The translations under genes and the position numbers were made by a program. A stretch of DNA of 64,000 bases from Sorex araneus (lineage: Eukaryota > Chordata > Mammalia > Eulipotyphla > Soricidae): positions 194,958,000 to 195,021,999 of the forward strand of contig NC_073306.1 of assembly GCF_027595985.1 (NCBI RefSeq), given 5' to 3'. Of this stretch, positions 5,386 through 50,700 are shown piece by piece. The notes below the pieces were generated by a model that saw only the letters and a program-made list of their open reading frames with translations, ran no database searches and was not told where the DNA came from. Positions within the stretch are counted from its first letter, which is position 1. Every line of letters begins with the position of its first letter.

Positions 5386-6700
5386 GAGGAAAAAACAGAT
5401 GAGAACTTAAAATTTGTAATGCATCTCCCCTACTTGTAAAACTGCTCCATCGTTAGATGGTTGACTCGCATGATGTGTGAGGCCGGGTGAATGACAGCAA
5501 CATGCAGACAACACTGCATTTTGCAAAGAGGGAGAGAGAGGAAAGCATCAGTTTAAGCCAGGTCTTTCTTTCATACACATCAGACACCAGATAGTAAAAG
5601 TACCAGCAACCACATTGCACAGAACCCAGACAGTAGAACCTAAATTCTTACCCTTGAGAAATGCTCATGATAATGTTGTTTGTCAAGATGTGTTTTGCTG
5701 ATGCCTTCAGCTCTCACCTGACTCTTTCATCTTTTCCTAACTTTCAGCAGCTTTCTAGACCCATCTAACAACTGGTTCGATAATGACTTAAAGATATGCT
5801 ATAGTGAGCAGACTGAAGGAAATGACGGAGAGTTTTTCAAAGTGGAGAGGGATTCACATTCTAATTTATTCACAAACTAGAAGTGGGTGGGTCTTCCTTA
5901 AAGATGTGTTTGGGAAAACTGCCATTAAAAATATCAACCCTGAATTTATGTGTCTAGCGGAGTTTGCACATCATTTTTACATGACTGTCTAGGGTTAAAT
6001 TACCTCCATGAAGCAGCCAGAGCTAAGTCCCAGATGACTGAAACCATATCATTTCTGCAGGTAGCAACCTTTGAAAAAATCAGAGACAAAGGAGGAAATC
6101 TTTATAGGAGCAATCTGTCTTGACTGTGTAAGACTTCCTTTTTTTAGGAGATCCTTCCCAGTAATGCCAATGACCTGGGGCCACTCTCTATGATACAAAA
6201 CACAGCAGCACCCAGCAATGCATGTGGATAGAAGGGGGGGAGCAGGAATCTTAACAATGAACTGAGCAACAGCCCTGGGCAAGCCAGGCTGTGCTCCTGC
6301 CCTTTGAGCCATGACCCTCACACTAAGAATTTCTTTCATGTCCATTCAATATATATCATATAATAAGTAAAATCAGTTCATTCACATGTGGAAGATAAAG
6401 AAACAAGATTAATGCGCAAACAACAACAAAAAGCATTTCCTGAGGAGGAGGGCTTTGGCATGGATAACCGTGGATATATAGGATCCATTGTATGGTGGTA
6501 TGAAGTAAATATACTTTTTATTGGAATCATAATGTGGAAGGCATAGGTTTAAGACTATAATGCCATACTTCTGACATCTGTATAATGTTATAAAACTATG
6601 TCTGTTCAACAAAAGTTAAAATATAAAAAGATACACTGTCAGTAAATTTACTCTGAAATTTTGTCCAGCTAACAGATTTTGAGTGCTTGTGCTTGGCGAG

Positions 6701-6862
6701 TACCGTGTGGCCACCCACCAACGAGATGGTCAGACTTCTCCATCAAAACCCTGAATGAACCGTTTGAGGCTCTTCCTGTTCCTGGAGCAAGCAGATATCA
6801 TTGAGACGTTACTGGCGCCCGCTAGAGCAGATCAAAGACCAACAGGATGACAAGTGATACAA
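6701..6862 (+). mobile_element. RTE-type LINE, 3' end fragment with TSD
   Basis: Carries the last codons of an RTE reverse-transcriptase ORF. One frame reads RRYWRPLEQIKDQQDDK and then stops at TGA, followed at once by the short repeat GATACAAGTG. About 28 bases are missing relative to the copy at 40892-41295. It is flanked by GTGCTTGGCGAG (6689-6700) and GTGCTTGGCAAG (6863-6874). The element is 5'-truncated. Confidence 0.85.
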
Positions 6863-7024
6863 GTGCTTGGCAAGTGTTTGTTACTGTGGTACCTAGAGCC
6901 TCTATGATACCAAGGTGCATAAGTAACTCAGTGGTAAAGTGTAATACTAAGGTAAGAAGTCAAAGAACAGAAGGAGAAGGACTATATATGCTGGAGAAAA
7001 GGAAATGTTTCATAGAGTAGAGGA

Positions 7025-10149: not shown

Positions 10150-10812
10150 TGTCCATGGCACTTTGAGGCCACGTGCTTCCTGGAGCTTGGTTTTATATCT
10201 AGATGTTGACCAATTATGGGATTACACGACACTGGGGGCAGTTTCTGGGTGTGACCACTTAGCTACTGGAAAATGGGGGACCTGGGGGAAGAGGCCCAGT
10301 CCCAATCCGAGCAGGCTTGGAGATCTCAACCCCGGGTCCCTCACACCTGGGTTCTGCTGCTGGTTCCTTCATGCATGAGGCTCGTCCAAACATGTGGAGA
10401 GGGGCTTTGAGCATGGCTGTGGCTGGGTTTCAGGAGTCTTCGGCTACCGGGGCTCTGTTCAGGGGAAAGAGGGAAACTCAACCCACCCTCTCCAAGAGGC
10501 CCCGGTGAAGACAGCCAGGTGCGGAGACAAGAGATTCTTGGAGAACCTGGCAAGCTACCAAGAGTTTTCCTGCCCGCATGGAAGAGCCTGGCAAACTCCC
10601 CATGGCGTATTCATATGCCAAATACAGTAATAATGATGCGTCTCATCTCCTGAGCCTGAAAGAGACTCTAATGCAGCACGTTGGGAAGGATGAGTAAAGA
10701 GAGACTGCTAAAATCTCAGGGCTAGGATAAATGGAGATGTTACTAGGCCTGCTGGAGCAAATCGAGGATCAACGAGATGATAGTGATGATAGTGATAGTG
10801 ATAGTGATCCTA
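10150..10812 (+). mobile_element. Long non-autonomous element with RTE-type tail
   Basis: The 3' half contains the middle block of the long SINE family (CCTGGCAAGCTACCAAGAG, CATATGCCAAATACAGTAA), separated from its tail by about 90 extra bases. It ends with the RTE-like tail (CTGGAGCAAATCGAGGATC) and a GATAGTGATAGTGATAGTGAT repeat. The 5' 350 bases are GC-rich and unfamiliar, without a tRNA-like head. The 5' limit is approximate. It could be an ancestor or relative of the long SINE, or several nested insertions. Confidence 0.5.
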
Positions 10813-11922: not shown

Positions 11923-12239
11923 TAGATATCCCTTGAGGTGTTGGGGGGAATGTACACACACCCACAAATACCCAAAACACACAAATTCCTCTGCACACTT
12001 TCATGGATTTATGGATACAGTTTAAGAAAGCAAGTTTTGGAGAGATGCCTAAAGCTGAGTTATCCCAAGGACACCTGGCTACCTGAGCAAATATCTCTGG
12101 GCCTAGGGAGTGGGGCCAGGACAAGTCCTGTGCAACACCTCCAAACTTCACAGAGCTGACAGCCCAGGAGAAACTAGAAAATTAGAAGGGAAAATTGAGT
12201 AGAAGCCCGCTGAGCTCAATGAGTGAAAACAGTAGTACT

Positions 12240-12482
12240 ATAGCACTATTGTCCCGTTGCTCATCAATTTGCTCGAGCGGGCACCAGTAAGGTCTCCACT
12301 GTGAGGCTTGTTGTTACTGGTTTTGGCCTATCGAATATGCCGAGGGGAGCTTGCCAAGCTCTGCCGTGCGGGCAGGATACTTTTGGTAGCTTGCTGGGCT
12401 CTCCAAGAGGGATGGAGGAATTGAATCAGGGTCGGCCATGTACAAGGCAAGCGTCCTACCCGCTGTGCTATGGCTCCAGTCC
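12240..12482 (-). repeat. tRNA SINE, long RTE-tailed family
   Basis: Read on the - strand: head, then GAGCCCAGCAAGCTACC, ATATTCGATAGGCC-like and GGAGACCTTACTGGTGCCC blocks, then the tail ending CAAATTGATGAGCAACGGG. No poly(A). Confidence 0.88.
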
Positions 12483-19788: not shown

Positions 19789-22700
19789 GTGAGTATTTTA
19801 ATCCATTTTCCAAGATACATAGGTTGCTTAGCAAACTAAGAATTGTCAGGAGTACACCAGAGAGAAAAAAAATTACTTAAATATATCAGAAAAAAATCAA
19901 ATTCATAGATAAGAAGGAAAACCTAAGAATTTACACAGTCATTATACTACATAGTAAGCATAATGAGTGTTACTTCCAATTTAAAAAAAAACTGATCACA
20001 GACTTGCATCCGATCATAATTATTTTGTTTGGGGGCCACACCAGGTGGTGCTCAGGGATTATTTCTGGCTCGTGGCTATAGGATCACTCCTGGCTGACTC
20101 CAGGACGATATGTGATTCTGGGGTGTCCACCGTGTATAAGACAAGTGCTTTACCTGCCGTGCTATTGCTCTGGCCCCCATCATAAAGTTTTAAAGATGAA
20201 AGAAATCTTAAAAGTCACCTGAAAGAAAATATTACTTTTACAAAATGAAAATTGAATGCCATTTTATATTTGCAAAATAGAAGCCTACCACCTTTAACAT
20301 CATTACCAAGGATCTGTCCAGTGATATAGTTTTGCTGGTATAGTGTGTGCTATAGGTTCAATCTGCAACACCAAAACAAAAAAATAAATATTCTCAGTAG
20401 TGACTACTTTAAAGATTAAATAAGAAATTAGTCTTAATAAAAATTAGCAATATTTTTATTTAATTAAATCAGAAAAGAATGTCCAAAGGTTTTCCCAAAT
20501 TTTGGTCATAATCTCAAAAGTTTGATTTAGAAAAGAAATCATTCACCAATATTTCCCTTAGTAATTTCCTTACATTGTTATAGGCTAAACAGTATAAAAT
20601 TATATTGACCTGTCTATAATGTTGTGAATCTGAAAATCCTTAATTAGCAGGAATTGATACATACATTACTGTTTACTTTGTTTAATTACATTTTTCCAAT
20701 TCTTCTGATATATCCCAGTAATTTTTAAAAGGAATTTTTACACCTACAATTCAGGAAAATGTTGAAATAGCCCTTTATTATATTGTTCCTTCAGGAAGCA
20801 GATAGGTGAGAATTGGTTTACTTAACTACTAAGTGTATTTAATGTTCCTCCCAAAAGGAAAAATGAACAAAAGAAATTAGCAATTACTAATGCCTATATT
20901 CTGTTACTATGCTAAAAATTATATTGTATATATTATGCCGTGAAAATACACCATTCTGAATAAAATCTTTATTTTCCTATATTGCATATGCAAATAAATC
21001 CATTTTCTTAAGAAATTACCCAAGTATATACTTCAGAATAAACCTTGTTCAAAGATGTAAATAGAAGTATTACTTTTGTAAGGCTTTAGAATTAACTAAA
21101 GTGGAATATATTAAATCTGTGAAAGCAATCTCCACATTTTATATGTCTACAGTTTCAATCTTTTCTTCTTTGAATTTAATCAAAGTATCCAACAAAGATA
21201 ATTTATGGAGTTGCCTGTTTTGTCCTATTTCTCCCATTTATGAGAAGAATATTTTAAGATAAAGCAATAGTAACAGAAAAAAATAGAGGAAAGGAGAAAG
21301 TGATAGGATTCTATGATATTCTGTTTAGTTTGATTAGTCCCTACATAATAGAATATTGTCTACATCATCTTGCTAGTTTAAAGTAATAATTTTGGAGTGT
21401 ATCTCATGGAAATTGAAATCTTTCTGAACAGTGAATATAGTCAACAACAGTGAATATAGTCAACCTTTTCTTTTTTGCTTTTTTTTTTTTTTGCTTTTTT
21501 TTTGGGGGGGTCACACCTGGTGATGCACAGGGGTTACTCCTGGCAATGCTCAGGGGACCATATAGGATGCTTGGAATCGAACCCAGGTGGGCCGAGTGCA
21601 AGGCAAATGCCCTACCCGCTGTGCTATCGCTCCAGCATCAACCTTTTCTAAGCTAGACTAACAACTGAAAGTTCAAAACCATCAATCGCCATCTTTTTAA
21701 TAACTTGCTAATTTCCACCTCACAATGCTGCTGTTCTTGTGACCGAGCATCTCTTTCCAACTTTGTCTTTGTCTTTGGTCCTCTTCCCTCCCCTTCCTTT
21801 TCCTTCTCTCCCTCCTTCTCCCCAGCTGACCCACACTCCCTCAGCCCCGCCCCCTCCGTGTTTCTCTCCTCTTTCCTTTTTTAAGTCAGATCCTTTGGCA
21901 GCTTAGAACAGTACCACTGCACTGTGTGGAGGCTGATGGAACCATCTCTGAGGCAGAGACCTGGACCCAGAGGCAGACCCCCTGGAGGGAGGGAGGGTGC
22001 ACAATGGTCTAGTCGGCACATCCCTATGAGCATTTTACTCTGGGGGGGATTAGAAAATGCCTTAAAGCCACCTTTTGGGCAAATGTCTAGTCAGGATAAT
22101 TTTGTCCCCCCTGGGGACATTGAGGATGTCTGGAGACACTTGATGGCCACAACTCCTAGCCTTGCAGGGTAAAAGCCAGGGTACCTCCAGATCACGCACC
22201 TGGAACAGGCTCCACCATTAGGAATTCTCCAGCCCTTGGGGTCGGAGCAATAGGACGGCAGGTAGGGTGCTTTCCTTGCACACAACAGACCTGGGTTCCA
22301 AACCTTGAGCCCGTTAGGAGTGACCTCTGAGCCCAGAGCCAGGAATAAGTCCTGAGCACACCCAGGTTTACCAAACGAAAAAAATTTTTTTTTTCATTTC
22401 CTGCCCCAAGAGCTGCAAAGAATTGTGCGAGGTTAAGAAAGCCTGAAGGAGCAATAGCACAGTGGGTAGGGGGTTTGCCTTGCACAGGCAGACCCGGTTT
22501 GATTCCTCTGTCCCTCTCAGAGAACCCAGCAAGCCACCAAGAGTATCCCGCCCTCACTGCAGAGCCTGGCAAGCTACCCTTGATATGCCAAAAGCAGTAA
22601 CAACATGTCTCACAATGGAGACGTTACTAGTGCCCGCTGGAGCAAATGGATGAACTAGGGGAAGACAGTGCTAGAGTGCTACCACTCAACCACTAGTACC

Positions 22701-25700
22701 TTCGTTCTGTAAAATACAAATGGTATCAAGGCTTCATTATTATCTATTCCTGAACTTCGCTTTGGGGGTGCTACACCCGGCTTTGGGCTCGCTCACTCTG
22801 GGCTCATTCCTGGCTCTGCAATCAGGGATCACGCCAGCCATGAAGCCCGGGGGACCTTATGTGGTGCCAGGGACCGAACCCCTGTGTCCAAGGCAAATGG
22901 CTTACCAGCTGTACTATCACTCTGACCCCCTGAACCTCTTCTTAATAAGCAGATGGATTTATTGCCTGCGTGAATTCGGTTTACCCTTCGCAAATACAAA
23001 TGAGATACGGTTTTGTATTGCAGGTACCAAGTGGTAATATGAAGATTCTCCTGGTCTTTCTAGGCCTGCTCGGTTATTCTACTGCTATGCCAGTGAGTTT
23101 GCTTCTTTTTAACTTACTTATTTTCTTTTTATACAAACTTTTCTTGGTTTTCTAATATTGTATCTTGGAAGAAATTGGCTTATCTCAACTGATATTCGGA
23201 ATTAATCACCCATATTTTCTCACTTTCAGATGCAAATGCCCCGAATGCGGGGATTTAGCAGTAAAAGTGAGGAGGTATGTATGATTATTCTTTCTGGAGA
23301 TCTTTTCCAGAGTCCTTCAAAAGAGTTCATTTTAAAACAGAGAATATTAAAATTTTTTCTAAGACAAAAAAATATATACATGGAAAATTATAGAGGGCTG
23401 GGAATTTGAAAGACTCAAATTCTCATCTAGCCTAAGTATTAAGTTCCCTAGAGTTATTCTACTTAAATATTTAAATATCCATTTTAGGGCAAATGTGAAT
23501 TTGTGTTCAAGTACAGTAAGTGTCAGCTTTTTTTTTTTTTACATTTTCAAGCTAGCAAAGGTAAGCCATTTCTATTAATGGTTGTTAGACAGTAGACACT
23601 TGAGCATATAAATATTTTTTGCAGGACTTACATCCAGGTTCATAAACCAAATTCATACCCAGCAGAAAGAATCGTCTTTTCAACAGATTATCACATTCTC
23701 AAATCCTAAACACTGAAAGAGAAGAATATTCATTCCTTGTGTTTCTATATTGTTTCTTCTCAAAATAAAAGTTTGGCTTAAAAATTAAAGTGCCGTAGAG
23801 GTTGTTTTCATTTCATGCTTATTTTTAATTCATGCATAATAAGAAAGAGACATTATAACCTTGTAACATAAAATAAAAAATTGGAACAAATGAATATTTT
23901 TCACTTGGTACCAAATTAATGAATTTCCTTGGTCACAGATGATGCGGTTCAATCAATTCTTTATGAACTCCCCTCATGTAAGTCCTACTTTTATTTTTTC
24001 TAATGGCTTTGAATTTATATACAGATAAGTACAGTATAAGTATAGGTTTGTCTTAGTTAATAAAGACACAGCAATAGGTATGTTTTAATTATAATTAGAA
24101 AAATTTCAAATGAGTAAATTATTTTACATACATGAGTTTTCTTCTTATTCATAACTCTTGTTCTTTCATGAAAATCAAAATTATTTATTAACTACCCAGG
24201 TTTATATATCCAGAAGAAAATGTTTGTGGACAAGAAAACAGTAAATTGTTTGTGAGAATAAATGCCATGCAAAATATACTCACAAAAATTACAATAGCAT
24301 GGCAAATAGATGGGGATGGTAAATTTTATTTGGATTATCTTGAAAGATAACACTAAATTATTAAATTAAATTTAAATTGTATCTCACTTAAATAAATTTA
24401 GCTTATACTTACAACCACATACTATTATTTAAAACTAACAACAACTCAGGGCTGGAGTGATAGAGCAGTGGGTAGGGCGTTCGCCTTGCACGTGGCCGAC
24501 CCTGTTCGATTCCTCCTTCCCTCTCGGAGAGCCCGGCAAGCTACCAAGAGTAGCTTGGTACTACTTGGTACTACTTGGTACACCCACATGGCAGAGCCTG
24601 GCAAGCTACTCGTGGCATATTGAATATGCCAAAAAACAGTAACAACAAGTCTCACAATGGAGATGTTACTGGTGCCCATCCATGAGCGACGGGATGACAG
24701 TGATACAGTGAACAACAACTCAAGGGTTGCTTGCATCTTTTGACATAAGTTTTCTCTTCAAAGTAATATGATAATGCAATAATATTTTCTGGCTCTTAAC
24801 TTTTGTTATATGATTACAAGAACCACTGGGAACTGGAGAATGAAGGACTTCACCAATTTTCTCCTTTTATATCGGAGAATCTTTAAAGCAAAACCCCAAA
24901 AATCCTGGGGCTCATTCCAGGTATACTGAGCCAATCAAGTCAGAAATTCAGTGCTTATGTGATACTCTGGCCTCCCGGTGTTCTGGTGGCCATAGAGCCA
25001 CACCCAGATATGCTTGGGCCCCTTATGGGCCTTGGCGGGTGGCACTGAGAAAGCCATGCAGTACTACAGTGCCAAGCCCCAAATATCGGTGCTCATGAAT
25101 GCCATGCAGGATCTTCAGTCATCTAAGCCATGTCTCTAATTTGCATCAAATTTTCTCTTAATCCTATTCAGTCAAGTCCCTCTGCATTTAAAAAGCATGT
25201 CCTCTCAATTTAGCATCATTTTTTATTTCTCTTCTTCAACTCTAGATTGGTCTAGCTTTCTCTAGCACTCATTCTCAATGTTTTGTTTGTGATCTGCAAT
25301 TTTCACCAACAATTTTCATTTTAATAAAATCCTGTTCGATGCCTGATTTTCAGTTTTACCTATCATCAACAGATATTCTCTAGTATTGTATACCTTATCC
25401 AGTAGACCAAAAAAGGGCTGACCAGTGAATATTGGAGCTAGAGGCTGCTATTAAGCCAGGGAAGGAACATGTGAATAGAAGCTAATATTGTAAAAAAATC
25501 TGATAATGAATTTGAAAGCTGATAAGAATTCTTTTTATTAAAAAAGGCAATTAATAGTGTTTACATATACCAGATTTTTATTACCTCTCATTTTTTTAAA
25601 TGGCATCGTTTCTTTCATTTATTCTTGTGGGTTTTTTTTTCCTTCTTGTTCAACCTGTTTGTAACCAGTCCGATTGATTCTGATTTTGTCATCAACTTCT

Positions 25701-28700
25701 CTATAACCTGACCCATCCACCTCTTTCCTGAGTCAGACTTCAGAGTTATTTTTTTTTCAACTGAAATTTTACGCAGAATTCTGCCTTTGGGTTTATTTTA
25801 TTCTTTTTATAGAAGACTGAATTCACTTCTCTTGAGATCTGTCACTGTCACTGTCACTGTCATCCCGTTGCTCATCAATTTGCTCGAGCGGGCACGAGTA
25901 ACATCTCCATTGTAGACTTGTTGTTACTGTTTTTGGCATATTGAATACGCCACGGGTAGCTTGCCAGGCTCTGCCATGCAGGCTGGATATTCTCGGTAGC
26001 TTGCCGGGCTGTCCAAGAGGGACAGAGGAATCGAACCTGGATCAGCCACGTGCAAGGCAAACACCCTACCTGCTGTGCTATCGCTCCAGCCTTCCACTAT
26101 TGAGTCAAATTCTTTAGCTGAGTTTTAGAGATGAAATTTAACCTAATTAATTTATTAAGTAGGTTATTAGTGATGGAGGATTTAGGTTGTGTTTGTGTCC
26201 TTATTTGAGTAAAACCTTCCTATAAAATTTATTTCCATGCCTCACATGTCTGAGCTCCTGGATTCTAGCTCTAGTACTGCAACAAATGAAAATTCCTTTT
26301 TCTTCATGATTACTGATGTAATGGGTAATTGAAGATGAAAAGACTCTACATCTCAGCCCTGTGTGGTTTGACTGACATTTGCTCCCCTTTCAGATGTCAC
26401 AGCTGGGTCCCATGTATGGAGATGGAATGCCTCAGCTCTTTCCACAGTATCATATGCCAATGTGGCCTCAGCCACCACCTCATATGGGGCACCCACCAAA
26501 ATCACCAACTCCTCCATCACCCAAGACTGATCAAACTCAAGAGACTCCTAAACCCACCCAGTCTCCACCCCCCAAAACGTCAAAGCAGCCTGCACAGCAG
26601 TCACAAACTACTACTCCTTCTAAGCCCAAAGAGGAACTGCCACAACATCAGGTGAGACTTTTGAGGAAAAATATCAAACCAGAGTCCGAAATGGCCTCAG
26701 GGGGGTTGGAGAGCAAAGGTGCCCTTACATACACATTTCCTCCAGTGTTTCTGAAGGTAGGTACTGTTAGGTATAAAATAGGATCATTATTTGGACATTT
26801 ATTTCAAGGTCATACTTGACCACCAATCCAAAACTCCTTGGTGAGTCATTTTTTTCTTGATTTAATTATTTCACAGATAATTAAAGACCCTTCTTTAAAA
26901 ATAAAATAAAATAAATTTGCAGTGTCATATAGCAATATGAGCCCCAACAGAACTGGTAGGAAGCAGAGATTCAGCCCTACCCCCAGATCTTCTAAGTTGC
27001 CTAAGTTGCTAACTGAGAAAATGATCTGATGACAGTAACCGTGTTCCACCTGTGCTGTGATTGTCTAAACCACTTCCATGAAAGGTATCCCTACTTCATT
27101 ACTTCTGGATAGCATAGCTTAAAGTTCTAACTTCAAGATAACTTTATAAATGTTTTCTCAAAATCCCATTCAGAACATTATTTTTTAGACACTCACAGAT
27201 ACAGAGAATACAAAACTGAGTAATAAGATAATCATGAATTTGAATCCTAGCTTCAATCTTTTGCCAGCGATGCAGCATTTGAAGCAAATGGTTTTCCTTC
27301 TCTGTACCTCAAAGTCTAAGGAAACAGGCAGAACAATGCATGACTTCTCTGGTTATGTGAGAATTAAATGAGTTGACCAGTGTAAAGTGCTCAACACAGT
27401 ACCTAGACCATAGGTGTTCAATAAAACTCATAATAGTTGTTACTAGTATCAAATACCCTAAGAAATTTCAGTGTACGTCAATGTAAATGTAGACTCCTAA
27501 GTTTCCCATAATTGTATTTATATGCATATTTCATTTTTTGTCTTCTCCTCAGTTTCCTTCTTCTCTAATTATTTCTTTCTCTTCAGGCATACCCACCATT
27601 TGGGTATCCCTTCCCACCACTGTGGCCAATTCCACACGTAAGTTTTTTTTCTTTATTCTTGAAGTGAAAAATATTAGCATGTTTTATTTCAAACAATTAT
27701 GATTTCATATAGTCTAAGCAGATGCCATATGCTACTGAGTAGGAAGCATAAAACAAAATCATTATACCAGTAATCAGGAAGGAAAATGAATTTTTATTTG
27801 TTGCAGTACTAGAGCTAGAATCCAGGAATTCAGAGGCATGGAAACAAATTTTATAGGAAGTGTTTATTCAAATAAGGACATAAACACAACCTTAAATCCT
27901 CTGTTACTAATAACCTCATTAATAAATTAATTTTAAAAAACATACTACTTCATCCACATGGCAGAGCCTGGCAAGCTACCCGTGGCATATTCATATGCCA
28001 AAAACAGTAACAACAAGTCTCACAATGGAGACATTACTGGTGCCTGCTCGAGCAAATCGATGAGCAACAGGACGACAGTGCTACAGCGAAGTGCACACTA
28101 CTTCATTACTATTTCCCACTTCCCTAAGAGATTAGAAAACATAGAAATTATCTTCACATAGTATAATGGGAAATTTAAAGTTTGACATTATTTGTTTTTG
28201 TTTTGTGTGCCACACCCTGCTGTAGTAGGAAATACTCTTAGCTCTGTGCTCAAGGATCATTCCTGGTAGTGCTCCATGAGTCATTTGTAGTGCTGGGGAT
28301 TGAATCTGGGTCAACTATGTGCAAGACTTTACCACTGAACTATCTCTCCAACAAAGTTTTGAATTATTAAAAGAATATCTAGGGAGCTGAAGGTAAAGCT
28401 CAGAAGTAGAACACATGCTTTGCATGTGTGAGACTTGGATTCTATTCTCAACAGTGCAAAAAAAATAATAAATTGGAAATTTATTTCAATTGCATAAGAA
28501 GCACTAAAAATATGATTTACAAATTAAGCACTTGGAACTAAAGCATTATTAAAGCCAATGTTGCTGACAAAAGCAGCGAGAAATACTTTAACATTCATTG
28601 GCATTGGGTTTTGCTGTTTACAATTCTAGAAGCTTCCTTGGGAGTGGGTGGTGAAATCTCCATTGGGGCTTAAGGTCCAGGCCCACTCCTGGCAATTCTT

Positions 28701-40891: not shown

Positions 40892-41295
40892 CACTTGTAT
40901 CACTTGTAACCCCATTGATCTTCGATTTGCTCGAGCAGGCGCCAATAATGTCTCCATTTGTCCGTCTCCAGCTAGTGCAGCCCAATGATATCTGCTTGCT
41001 CCAGGAACAGAAAGAGCCTCAAATCGTTCATTCAGAGATTTGACCAAGAAATCTGACCATCTAGTTGGTGGGTGGCCACGAGGTCTTCTGACATCCTGTG
41101 GAATCCAGTCAGTAACAGCTCTTGTCCAGCTGTCGTCTCTGAATTGCATTACATGATCGGCCCATCTGATTTTTGATGCCTTGGCAAATGAGACAGCATC
41201 CCTGATTTTTGACCGTTGACGGAGGTCAGAACTCCAGATTCCTTCTCTCACTTGAGTGAGACATGATATTCGCAGCATAGCTCTTTCGATTTAAG
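40892..41295 (-). mobile_element. RTE-type LINE, 5'-truncated copy with TSD
   Basis: Read on the - strand it encodes the C-terminal part of an RTE ORF. ISCLTQVREGIWSSDLRQRS, IRWADHVMQFRDDSWTRAV and RPRGHPPTRWSDF match the linker after the reverse transcriptase. After a one-base shift the last codons read WRHYWRLLEQIEDQWGYK and a TGA. It ends in ACAAGTGATACAAGTG without poly(A). Flanked by TTAAGGGGAAGTT (40879-40891) and TTAAAGGGAAGTT (41296-41308). It is dead, having lost the endonuclease and most of the reverse transcriptase. Confidence 0.9.
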
Positions 41296-44784: not shown

Positions 44785-45020
44785 CACTGTAACTATCACT
44801 GTCATCCCGTTGTTCATTGATTTGCTCGAGCGGGCACCAGTAATGTCTCCATTGTGAGACTTGTTGTTACGGTTTTTGGCATATCGAATACACCACTGGT
44901 AGCTTGCCAGACGAGATACGCTCTGTAGCTTGCTAGGCTCTCCGAGAGGGGCGGAGGAATCGAACCCGGGTCCACCACATGTAAGGTGAACGCCCTACCC
45001 ACTGTGCTATCGCTCTAGCC
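44785..45020 (-). repeat. tRNA SINE, long RTE-tailed family, with 12-bp TSD
   Basis: Reversed complete copy flanked by CACACTCATAGT (44773-44784) and CACACTCGTAGT (45021-45032). About 20 bases are missing from the CGGGCGG-type middle block. Confidence 0.93.
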
Positions 45021-45126
45021 CACACTCGTAGTAAATAAGTAAATGATCTGCTAGAGAGTAATAAGTTCAGGGGGACAAAAAAGACAGATGAGGGGATGGA
45101 GATAGCAATTTTTAAAATATGCTCAG

Positions 45127-47748: not shown

Positions 47749-50700
47749 CTGAAAAGCAAACAGATCCATCAAACATTGTCTCAAAATCTGAATAACTATA
47801 CATTTCCACGCAAAATCAATTATTTCTTGCAACTCTGAGCGAACTTCAATTGCTCTACAGTAGTGAAGAACCCAGTGGAAATTAGTAGTGAAGAACCTAA
47901 TGCAAATACAATGGTGAAGAACTCAATGTAAATTAGTTGAAAGAATGGCTATAGAATGAGTAACTCCTTAATATCATCACTTGGACTATATCATACAATT
48001 TCTATTCTTATGTTTATTCCCAACTGCATATCAGAATTAAAGGCATTACTTATAGTGTTACCTTTTTTGGTAACAGGATTTTGTAGTTTCCAAAGAATTA
48101 TCTGCATATTAACAAGTCTGAAATCCAATTATTGGACTATTTGGACAAATTGGTGCTCTTTGTATTTGATCATAATAATTTCTTATTTAGAATAAAAATT
48201 TTTAATTTGTCTTGGGGCCACATCGGGCTGTGTTTAGAGCTTACTCCTGGCTCTGTGCTCAGGGATTACTCCTGGCTGGACTCAGGGGACTATATGGAGT
48301 GCCAGAAATAGAATATGATTGGCCACATGCAAGGTAAGCACCCTAATTGCTGTACTATCTAGCACCTACAATAAACTTACAGGAAAATTTTATCTGCAAA
48401 TATAATAATTAATTAGTCAACATCAGATTACCTTGGTAAACATTTATGTGTCAACCTATTAAGAAAAACATTCTTACAAATAAGTTTTCTTATTAGCAAC
48501 TACTCTTAACAATGCCTGTTAGATTTATCTTAGTAACAAGAAATATTTCTTACTGGTCAGCCAAATGGTACACAAATTCGGTTCTCATTGGAGACGTAGG
48601 ATCTGTAATATTCTCCCTGTTCCCCACAGGAACACTGAAAAAAAGAAAGTAAAGCAAAATAATAAAACCAGCAAAAATTAATATTTGTGCTAACAGATAT
48701 ATTAAAGGACAGTATCTACCATTTAACTTGGGCTTTTAAATTTAGCAAGATATAATAATATTTGATTCATATCTCACAGTAATTCAAATTTGGTTTTGGT
48801 TTGAGGACCAAAGTGGTGTTGCTTAAGGTTTACCTGGCTCTTTGCTCAGGGATTGCCCCTGGAGGGAACTGGGGGACCATATGTGATGCTGGGAATTGAA
48901 TCCCTGTTGGCTGCATTCAAGGAAAGCACCTTATCCACTGTGCAGTCTCTCCAGCCCTCAGTATATTTCACACATTTCTACTCAAAACAGTCCTCCCAGT
49001 TACTGACATACTGGTGCTGGAGGTGGTGAAATATCATTGCAAGTGTAGTAATAGGCAAATGTTGTATGTATAAAAAAAAAGTCCTGGGTTTCATCAACTG
49101 CACTGAAAATAAATTTTAAAATACATTTAAAAATAAAAACATGCCCAGATTAGAGGAAGAGTTCAGCAGGTAGGGTAGGTACTTGCCTTGTAGGCCAACC
49201 TAGTTCAACCCCCAGCATCCCATATGGGCCTGACCCCCACCACGAGGGATCCCTGGGCTCAGAGCATGGTGTAAACATTGAGCATAAGTAATCGCACAGC
49301 GGTTGGGCATTCGCCTTTCATGCGGCCAACCCGAGTTCGATTCCTCCGCGCCTCTCAGAGAGCCCGGCAAGCTACCGAGAGTATCGCGCCTGCAGGGCAG
49401 AGCCTGGCAAGCTACCCGTGCATATTGAATATGCCAAAAACAGTAACAATAAGTCTCTCAATGAGAGACATTACTGGTGCCCGCTCAAACAAATCGATGA
49501 GCAACGGGATGACAGTGACAGTGACAGTAAAAATATTCTTCTGAAGGAAAAACAAATATGTTATGTAAAGATGGACACTCCTTAGCTTGAGAGATGGCGC
49601 AAAAGTCTGAAAAGTATGTCCTTCATGCAGGAGTCCTGAATTCAATCCCAGTACAACATAGTCAACCAAGCAGGACCAGGAGTGACCCCAAAGCACAGAG
49701 CCAGGAGCCGACCCTGAGTCCCACCAGGTGTGCCCCCTCCCCTTAAAAAATAAAAAACATCAAGTGGAGCCAGAGCGATAGTACAGTGTGTAGGGCGTTT
49801 GCCTTGCATGCAGCCGACTCATATTCCATCCTCGGCATCCCAGATGGTCTCCCAAGCATCACCAGGAATAATTTCTGAGTGCAGAGTGAGGAGTAACCCC
49901 TGAGTATCACAAGATGTCACCCCCAAAAGAAAAAAAAAGTGCCCTGAGCATCACCAAGTATAAACTATCACTGTCACTGTCATCCCATTGCTCATCGATT
50001 TGTTCGAGCAGGCACCAGTAACGTCTCTCATTGTGAGACTCATTGTTACTGTTTTTGGCATATCCAATACACCATGGGTAGCTTTCCAGGCTCTGCCGTG
50101 CGGGCGCGATACTCTCGGTAGCTTGCCGGGCTCTCCGAGAGGGGCGGAAGAATCGAACACGTGTCAGCTGCGTGAAAGCCGAACACCCTAATGCTGTGCT
50201 ATATGTAAGTTTAAAAAAGATAGAAGATAAAAAAGGTTGTGCATGGGCACTTTGATGGTGGAGGATATTAATTGTAGTAATTAATTGTAGTATTAACTGT
50301 AGTAATTTTGTATATGGAAACCATAAACTTTAACCCTATTGTAAACACCTAAATTACAACAAAACACAATGATAACATTTTCAAAAGACACTCCTCTTCA
50401 ATGTGGATTAGGTGCCAATGCCATAAATGCCATCCCTTCAGGTTGTAAACTTGTCCAATTGTCTGTTTCTAATAGGGACTATATGGTATGAAGACTGAGT
50501 GGTCAAGGAGAACCTGCTAGTGGAAATGCTGTGGAAGCTAAGACATGCATGCTGCAGAGGAGTTAAAGGGGTAGAGAGGGGCAAAAAGTAAAATTAAAAA
50601 ATAAAAAAATTTGGGCACAACTAGCATATGCAATAACAAAAGAAAAAAACAATTATGAATATGAGAAAGTAAAGGTACCATAATGTGGTTGGATTATTTT

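Follow-up and report, generated by a model that had tools for sequence, protein, structure and literature searches.

Is the tail of a SINE family copied from the protein-coding end of the LINE that would mobilise it? This question is raised by a truncated RTE element in a 64,000-nucleotide stretch of the Sorex araneus genome, hereafter the window. As the preliminary description of this DNA stated, the minus strand of the copy at 40892-41295 ends with codons, a TGA, and directly a repeat (...TGG AGA CAT TAT TGG CGC CTG CTC GAG CAA ATC GAA GAT CAA TGG GGT TAC AAG TGA TACAAGTG). The copy lies between target-site duplications of 13 bases that differ at one position, AACTTCCCTTTAA (41308-41296) and AACTTCCCCTTAA (40891-40879), so that the element corresponds to exactly 41295-40892 and its 3' end to TACAAGTG, eight bases past the stop. 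Its CpG-free divergence from the subfamily A consensus is 2.0%. This copy is not itself open, since a small deletion located a few codons further upstream puts it out of frame, and the codons given correspond only to the last frame; unlike it, other RTE copies of the genome present the open frame. The copy previously placed at 6701-6862 does have a like ending, with bounds of 6702-6862, 13-base target-site duplications (6689-6701 and 6863-6875, one mismatch), and a difference of 2.1% from the consensus of subfamily B. The features of the window are collected in Table 1.

Table 1. RTE-related features of the window; positions count from its first letter.
Feature	Positions	Strand	Further evidence or remark
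5'-truncated RTE LINE copy (subfamily A), 404 bases	40892..41295	-	Target-site duplications and consensus divergence
3' segment common to LINE copy and long SINE (last codons, stop, 3' UTR), 67 bases	40892..40958	-	
TGA stop of the RTE ORF	40900..40902	-	Matching TGA closes an open stretch in 9 of 20 other copies
Entire 3' UTR, TACAAGTG; target-site duplication adjoins	40892..40899	-	
5'-truncated RTE LINE copy (subfamily B)	6702..6862	+	TGA at 6855-6857
Headless bipartite derivative: RTE 5' UTR, ORF start, last codons, terminal repeat	10536..10795	+	
Long SINE (head, RTE 5' UTR piece, RTE 3' end)	12237..12482	-	Absent from the preliminary list
Long SINE	22448..22678	+	Absent from the preliminary list
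Long SINE	24449..24711	+	
Long SINE	25848..26091	-	
Long SINE, 5'-truncated	27954..28089	+	
Long SINE	44794..45021	-	
Long SINE	49291..49524	+	
Long SINE	49968..50202	-	

The 3' boundary of the LINE was defined in the whole genome (2.406 Gb in 65 contigs), where a search for copies of the LINE gave 6,002 candidates. Forty places were scored, 39 of them being other copies at 92-93%, and 20 of these 39 were fetched, each with 3.6 kb upstream. All 20 align through ...GACTACAAG TGA TACAAGTGAT and then diverge about 10 bases past the TGA, the exception being L026, which has one additional repeat unit and diverges about 20 bases past the TGA. The LINE 3' UTR is of 8-10 bases, very short and repeat-bearing, being made of the TACAAGTGA repeat. 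A long 3' UTR after the stop was looked for in these 20 copies and not found, in agreement with the original claim that there is almost none. In copies with a clear target-site duplication, the duplication starts where the alignment to the LINE stops, inside or beside the terminal repeat. Fifteen of the 20 copies were scored for duplications adjoining the repeat, those omitted being five whose 5' ends are complex. A score of at least 7 is reached in 8 of the 15, compared with 0 of 210 mispaired flanks; one of the 8 (L014) represents an AT repeat that is to be discounted.

Also, in 9 of the 20 copies one of the three longest open stretches of the locus, with a length of 142-401 codons, closes at precisely this TGA; taking the identical L016 and L017 as a single copy gives 8 of 19. 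The 401-codon stretch, from L025, is a reverse transcriptase (RVT_1, E 2.2e-23), with R2 and LINE-1 proteins among its 10 PDB matches. In L021 the first TGA is lost and, as each TAC AAG TGA unit of nine bases contains an in-frame stop, the frame is closed by the TGA of the following unit. At the opposite end, the LINE ATG opens the frame MSKERLKKSRGRTRLPKRRKTKMIVCTFNARTL, and the N terminus bears a weak resemblance to an APE-type endonuclease, one of two pieces giving a match to Exo_endo_phos just short of the Pfam cutoff (E 3.5e-05; 24.1 bits, against 24.5) and the other piece matching no family. Related LINE proteins were sought in viral and prokaryote collections, where none was found. The LINE is assigned to the RTE clade, with a non-LTR reverse transcriptase. 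In two of the fetched loci (L010, 1137-2844, and L013, 1094-2332), the 5' part of the RTE copy is inverted next to a 3' part in sense orientation, an arrangement like that left by twin priming. Moreover, L016 and L017 (contig C1, near 446.70 and 446.78 Mb) share stretches of 4,402 bases in opposite orientation that are identical letter by letter, for which reason they would represent a recent inverted duplication or an assembly artefact.

The six SINEs of the preliminary list were said to end with the 3' bases of the RTE, and all six do; with two further SINEs, the window contains eight long SINEs with the RTE-type tail, together with one headless relative. Tail matches between window copies reach a best E value of 3.5e-12, and a comparison of the consensus long SINE with single LINE copies matches the 3' end in 20 of 20 along about 66 bases (E 1e-10 to 2e-20), bearing out the proposal that the SINE tail is the end of the ORF of its partner LINE. 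As the LINE has almost no sequence past its stop, this tail corresponds to its last protein-coding codons, and contains 18-19 of them, the stop letters, and the terminal repeat. Across the last 66 bases, it differs from the 3' end of subfamily B by three substitutions and two one-base deletions. A stop inside the shared segment had been anticipated, and this holds only in part: the letters TGA are kept in the SINE, but they are out of frame there because of a one-base deletion (GACAAGTGA to GACAGTGA). Among the RTE copies of this genome, no better source LINE was seen, the tail and the middle of the SINE matching one and the same element.

The correspondence of the middle is an addition to the preliminary description. 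By alignment, the SINE also holds a piece of the LINE 5' UTR of at least 111 (about 115-120) bases, with 106 of 111 bases agreeing with the 5' consensus of 10 loci. Loci extending further 5' were obtained with a 5' probe, and in 10 of the 11 compared (L082-L092) the SINE middle is found at the same position, the eleventh (L090) being truncated where it would be; the matching segment stops 55 bases upstream of the LINE ATG. Pieces of both ends of one RTE are then present in the SINE (5' in 10 of 11 loci, 3' in 20 of 20 copies), making it bipartite, with a tRNA-type head at 1-67, the RTE 5' UTR from 66 to about 182, and the RTE 3' end at about 184-249. The 67-base head, presumably an RNA polymerase III promoter, is also found in short SINEs of the genome. 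ARAGORN reports no tRNA in 16 of 20 long-SINE loci, and its seven tRNA-Ala calls in the window (30848, 44514, 51954, 53759, 54906, 59215, and 61253) all coincide with heads of short SINEs, which suggests a tRNA-Ala origin of the short SINE. In younger SINEs (window 49962-50202 and L029-L048), a palindrome such as GTCTCTCAATGAGAGAC spans the joint between the 5' UTR and ORF-end pieces.

Exact tails in the genome number 731 for LINE subfamily A, 1,290 for subfamily B, and 16,517 for the SINE type, with 0 control matches in each case; these counts are minima, the exact 23-mer being present in two of the eight SINEs of the window, and the SINE-type count includes part of the headless family. The CpG-free divergence from consensus is 0.9-3.4% for LINE A (19 copies, one of the identical pair being dropped) and 1.0-5.1% for the young SINE (20 of 21 copies), both samples being biased to young copies since they comprise the best matches of the search. 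In the window, the LINE copy shows 2.0% and the eight SINEs 2.6-9.6%, the latter from a hand-made consensus. For the older subfamily B, from which 20 copies were fetched of 40 scored, values of 7.3-13.6% are obtained in 13, and those of 25.5-29.8% in the remaining seven were set aside as probably reflecting misaligned flank. Also, 20 of the 21 SINE copies were scored for target-site duplications, and 9 of these 20 reach at least 7, compared with 0 of 380 mispaired flanks. Judged by these divergences of young copies, the activity periods of LINE and SINE overlap, a point that the preliminary description had proposed to test.

The headless relative belongs to a family that surfaced in a pattern search for LINE copies with the SINE tail variant (19 matches, 1 control match, 12 fetched), its members being L093, L094, L095, L098, L103, and the window copy. 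A 27-base signature of this family has 6,968 exact matches in the genome and 0 in controls. All six aligned copies read the T of GTCTCA as in the SINE, where the LINE reads GCCTCA, and SINE and headless family keep nearly the same 66-72 tail bases, although their inner breakpoints differ. The window copy retains GAGGATCAA, close to GAAGATCAA of the LINE, and also has a one-base tail deletion (GATAGTGAT); because the pattern that picked the five fetched copies demands such a deletion, only the window copy gives unselected support. Two further features of the family are that the fusion ATG AGT AAG ... TGG AGA CGT appears to be in frame, giving a mini-ORF, and that in L095 and L098 an (AT)n run and CATCATCATAAAGGGA lie just upstream.

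Judged from this structure, the headless family is likely an intermediate between LINE and SINE. The simplest order of events would be an internally deleted RTE, followed by loss of the stop frame, and then by further deletion and gain of the tRNA head. An internal deletion would join the RTE 5' end to its 3' end; the deleted RTE would later lose a further stretch at the junction and acquire the head; and the LINE protein would start target-primed reverse transcription at the common 3' end, allowing the SINE to spread. Such mobilisation gains indirect support from the common 3' end, the target-site duplications, and the overlap in divergence. Very probably, then, the long SINE is a bipartite RTE-SINE composed of a tRNA-type head, about 115-120 bases of RTE 5' UTR, and the last 66-68 bases of the LINE, which most likely arose from an internally deleted RTE and would be spread by the LINE protein. 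Because the LINE, the headless deletion derivative, and the SINE coexist in this genome, they allow the successive stages in the origin of a SINE to be traced.

What the RTE enzyme would read in this common end is a separate matter. It is quite possible, if somewhat short of probable, that the enzyme recognises the terminal repeat (TACAAGTGA / CAGTGA units) and nothing else, the codons in the SINE having come along with the founding deletion without a role of their own. Consistent with this, the LINE tail folds no better than its shuffles (z +0.77, +0.54, and +0.24), the changes in the SINE, taken together, do not stabilise it to an unusual degree (of 3000 random sets with an equal number of changes, 627 are as stable), and extra conservation of the last 20 codons is not clear between subfamilies A and B: of 115 codons, 22 are changed (10 by synonymous and 12 by non-synonymous differences, one of the latter being a stop in the older consensus), and 2 of the 22 fall in this last stretch. 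The start of the target-site duplications in or next to the repeat points in the same direction. Against it, the SINE and the headless family preserve nearly the same tail despite their differing inner breakpoints, which one common ancestor could also account for, and the SINE tail, taken together with the junction, has a better fold than most of its shuffles, 5 and 7 of 200 being equally good. However, the fold comparison between LINE and SINE is not like for like, since the SINE stretches include the junction hairpin and the LINE ones do not. A conserved RNA hairpin as the recognition signal was rejected on the LINE-tail shuffles and the 627 of 3000 sets, and no selected structure is claimed.

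Recognition of the coding part as RNA by the enzyme is plausible, while the repeat alone may suffice. A broader reading, which we offer tentatively and would not yet call probable, is that the RTE carries its RNA signal inside coding sequence, the last codons serving both as the C terminus of the protein and as an RNA handle. The SINE, freed from coding, would then show which bases are needed as RNA only, its stop frame being broken and the 9-base unit TAC AAG TGA, with its in-frame stop, having given way to 8- and 6-base units; and an abundant mammalian SINE family would have been enabled by a LINE shared with parasitic worms. A tail made mostly of codons also allows a well-defined test of which part of the template RTE-clade enzymes recognise.

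A different origin of the tail, which we regard as unlikely, is that the SINE took it from a LINE subfamily already bearing the SINE-type end (ACAGTGATACAGTGA), so that the stop frame was lost in the LINE and not after release from coding. Both one-base deletions indeed occur together in L101 and L102, two plain LINE copies whose upstream sequence has about 85% identity with that of L025, and in one deletion derivative (L096). This end is rare in LINEs, though, since of the few genome pattern matches described above several belong to the headless family, while the 1,290 exact subfamily B tails retain the stop, and the few LINEs with the SINE-type end could be LINE/SINE recombinants. Chance likeness, or an unrelated common repeat, is so improbable as to be rejected, given that two separate parts of the SINE match both ends of one LINE in order and that the 16,517 exact 23-mers face no control match, no point in its favour having been found.

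From the host and the type of element, the LINE is most likely RTE1_Sar of Sorex araneus, an assignment toward which we also used its presumed resemblance to nematode RTE C termini. If so, an element shared with parasitic nematodes not only copied itself in a mammal but became the engine of a mammalian SINE family that outnumbers the LINE itself.

RTE1_Sar, like the LINE described here an RTE LINE of the common shrew (the two being compared by description and not by sequence), has been reported as horizontally transferred between strongylid nematodes and this species, and the term SINE is absent from the main text of that report (PMC6542046). In the literature searched by title and start of abstract, a scope outside which Repbase and subscription journals lie, no description of the shrew LINE/SINE pair was found; the kind of element is known, and it is the shrew pair and its setting that are without a match in that literature. 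One paper, in which no occurrence of 'shrew' was counted, names CR1 and RTE as the clades to which most partners of SINEs belong (PMC3747384). The preliminary description considered the borrowing of coding sequence less usual, a view weakened by bipartite RTE-SINEs of birds and hagfish, by a likely moth precedent, and by reports that the 3' UTRs of RTE elements are very short and carry repeats (PMC2887409), such tiny 3' UTRs being the reason why an RTE-derived tail would include coding sequence.

Among known systems, Bov-tA and Bov-A2 are likewise ruminant SINEs that depend on an RTE-clade LINE, Bov-B, with a tRNA-headed form and one listed with the LINE 5' end, although Bov-B corresponds to another RTE lineage (PMC3747384), of likely snake origin (PMC13295347). 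In the cotton bollworm, the tRNA-derived SINE HaSE1 matches at its 3' end HaRTE1.1, an RTE whose short 3' UTR contains repeats, and this pair is likely a precedent for a partly coding SINE tail; however, its central domain is not reported as an RTE 5' UTR (PMC3272025). The SINE1-1_EBu and SINE2 families of hagfish are, as in the shrew, chimeras of a small-RNA head with RTE 5' and 3' parts, for which internally deleted RTEs have been proposed as intermediates, but with different heads and RTE families (PMC7245038). Finally, the AviRTE SINEs of birds combine a promoter-bearing head with a bipartite tail from 5' and 3' parts of an RTE, and AviRTE is also a LINE shared between a vertebrate and nematodes; nonetheless, their 3' piece is described as the full 3' UTR of about 40 bp, whereas that of the shrew SINE consists mostly of codons (PMC4844689).
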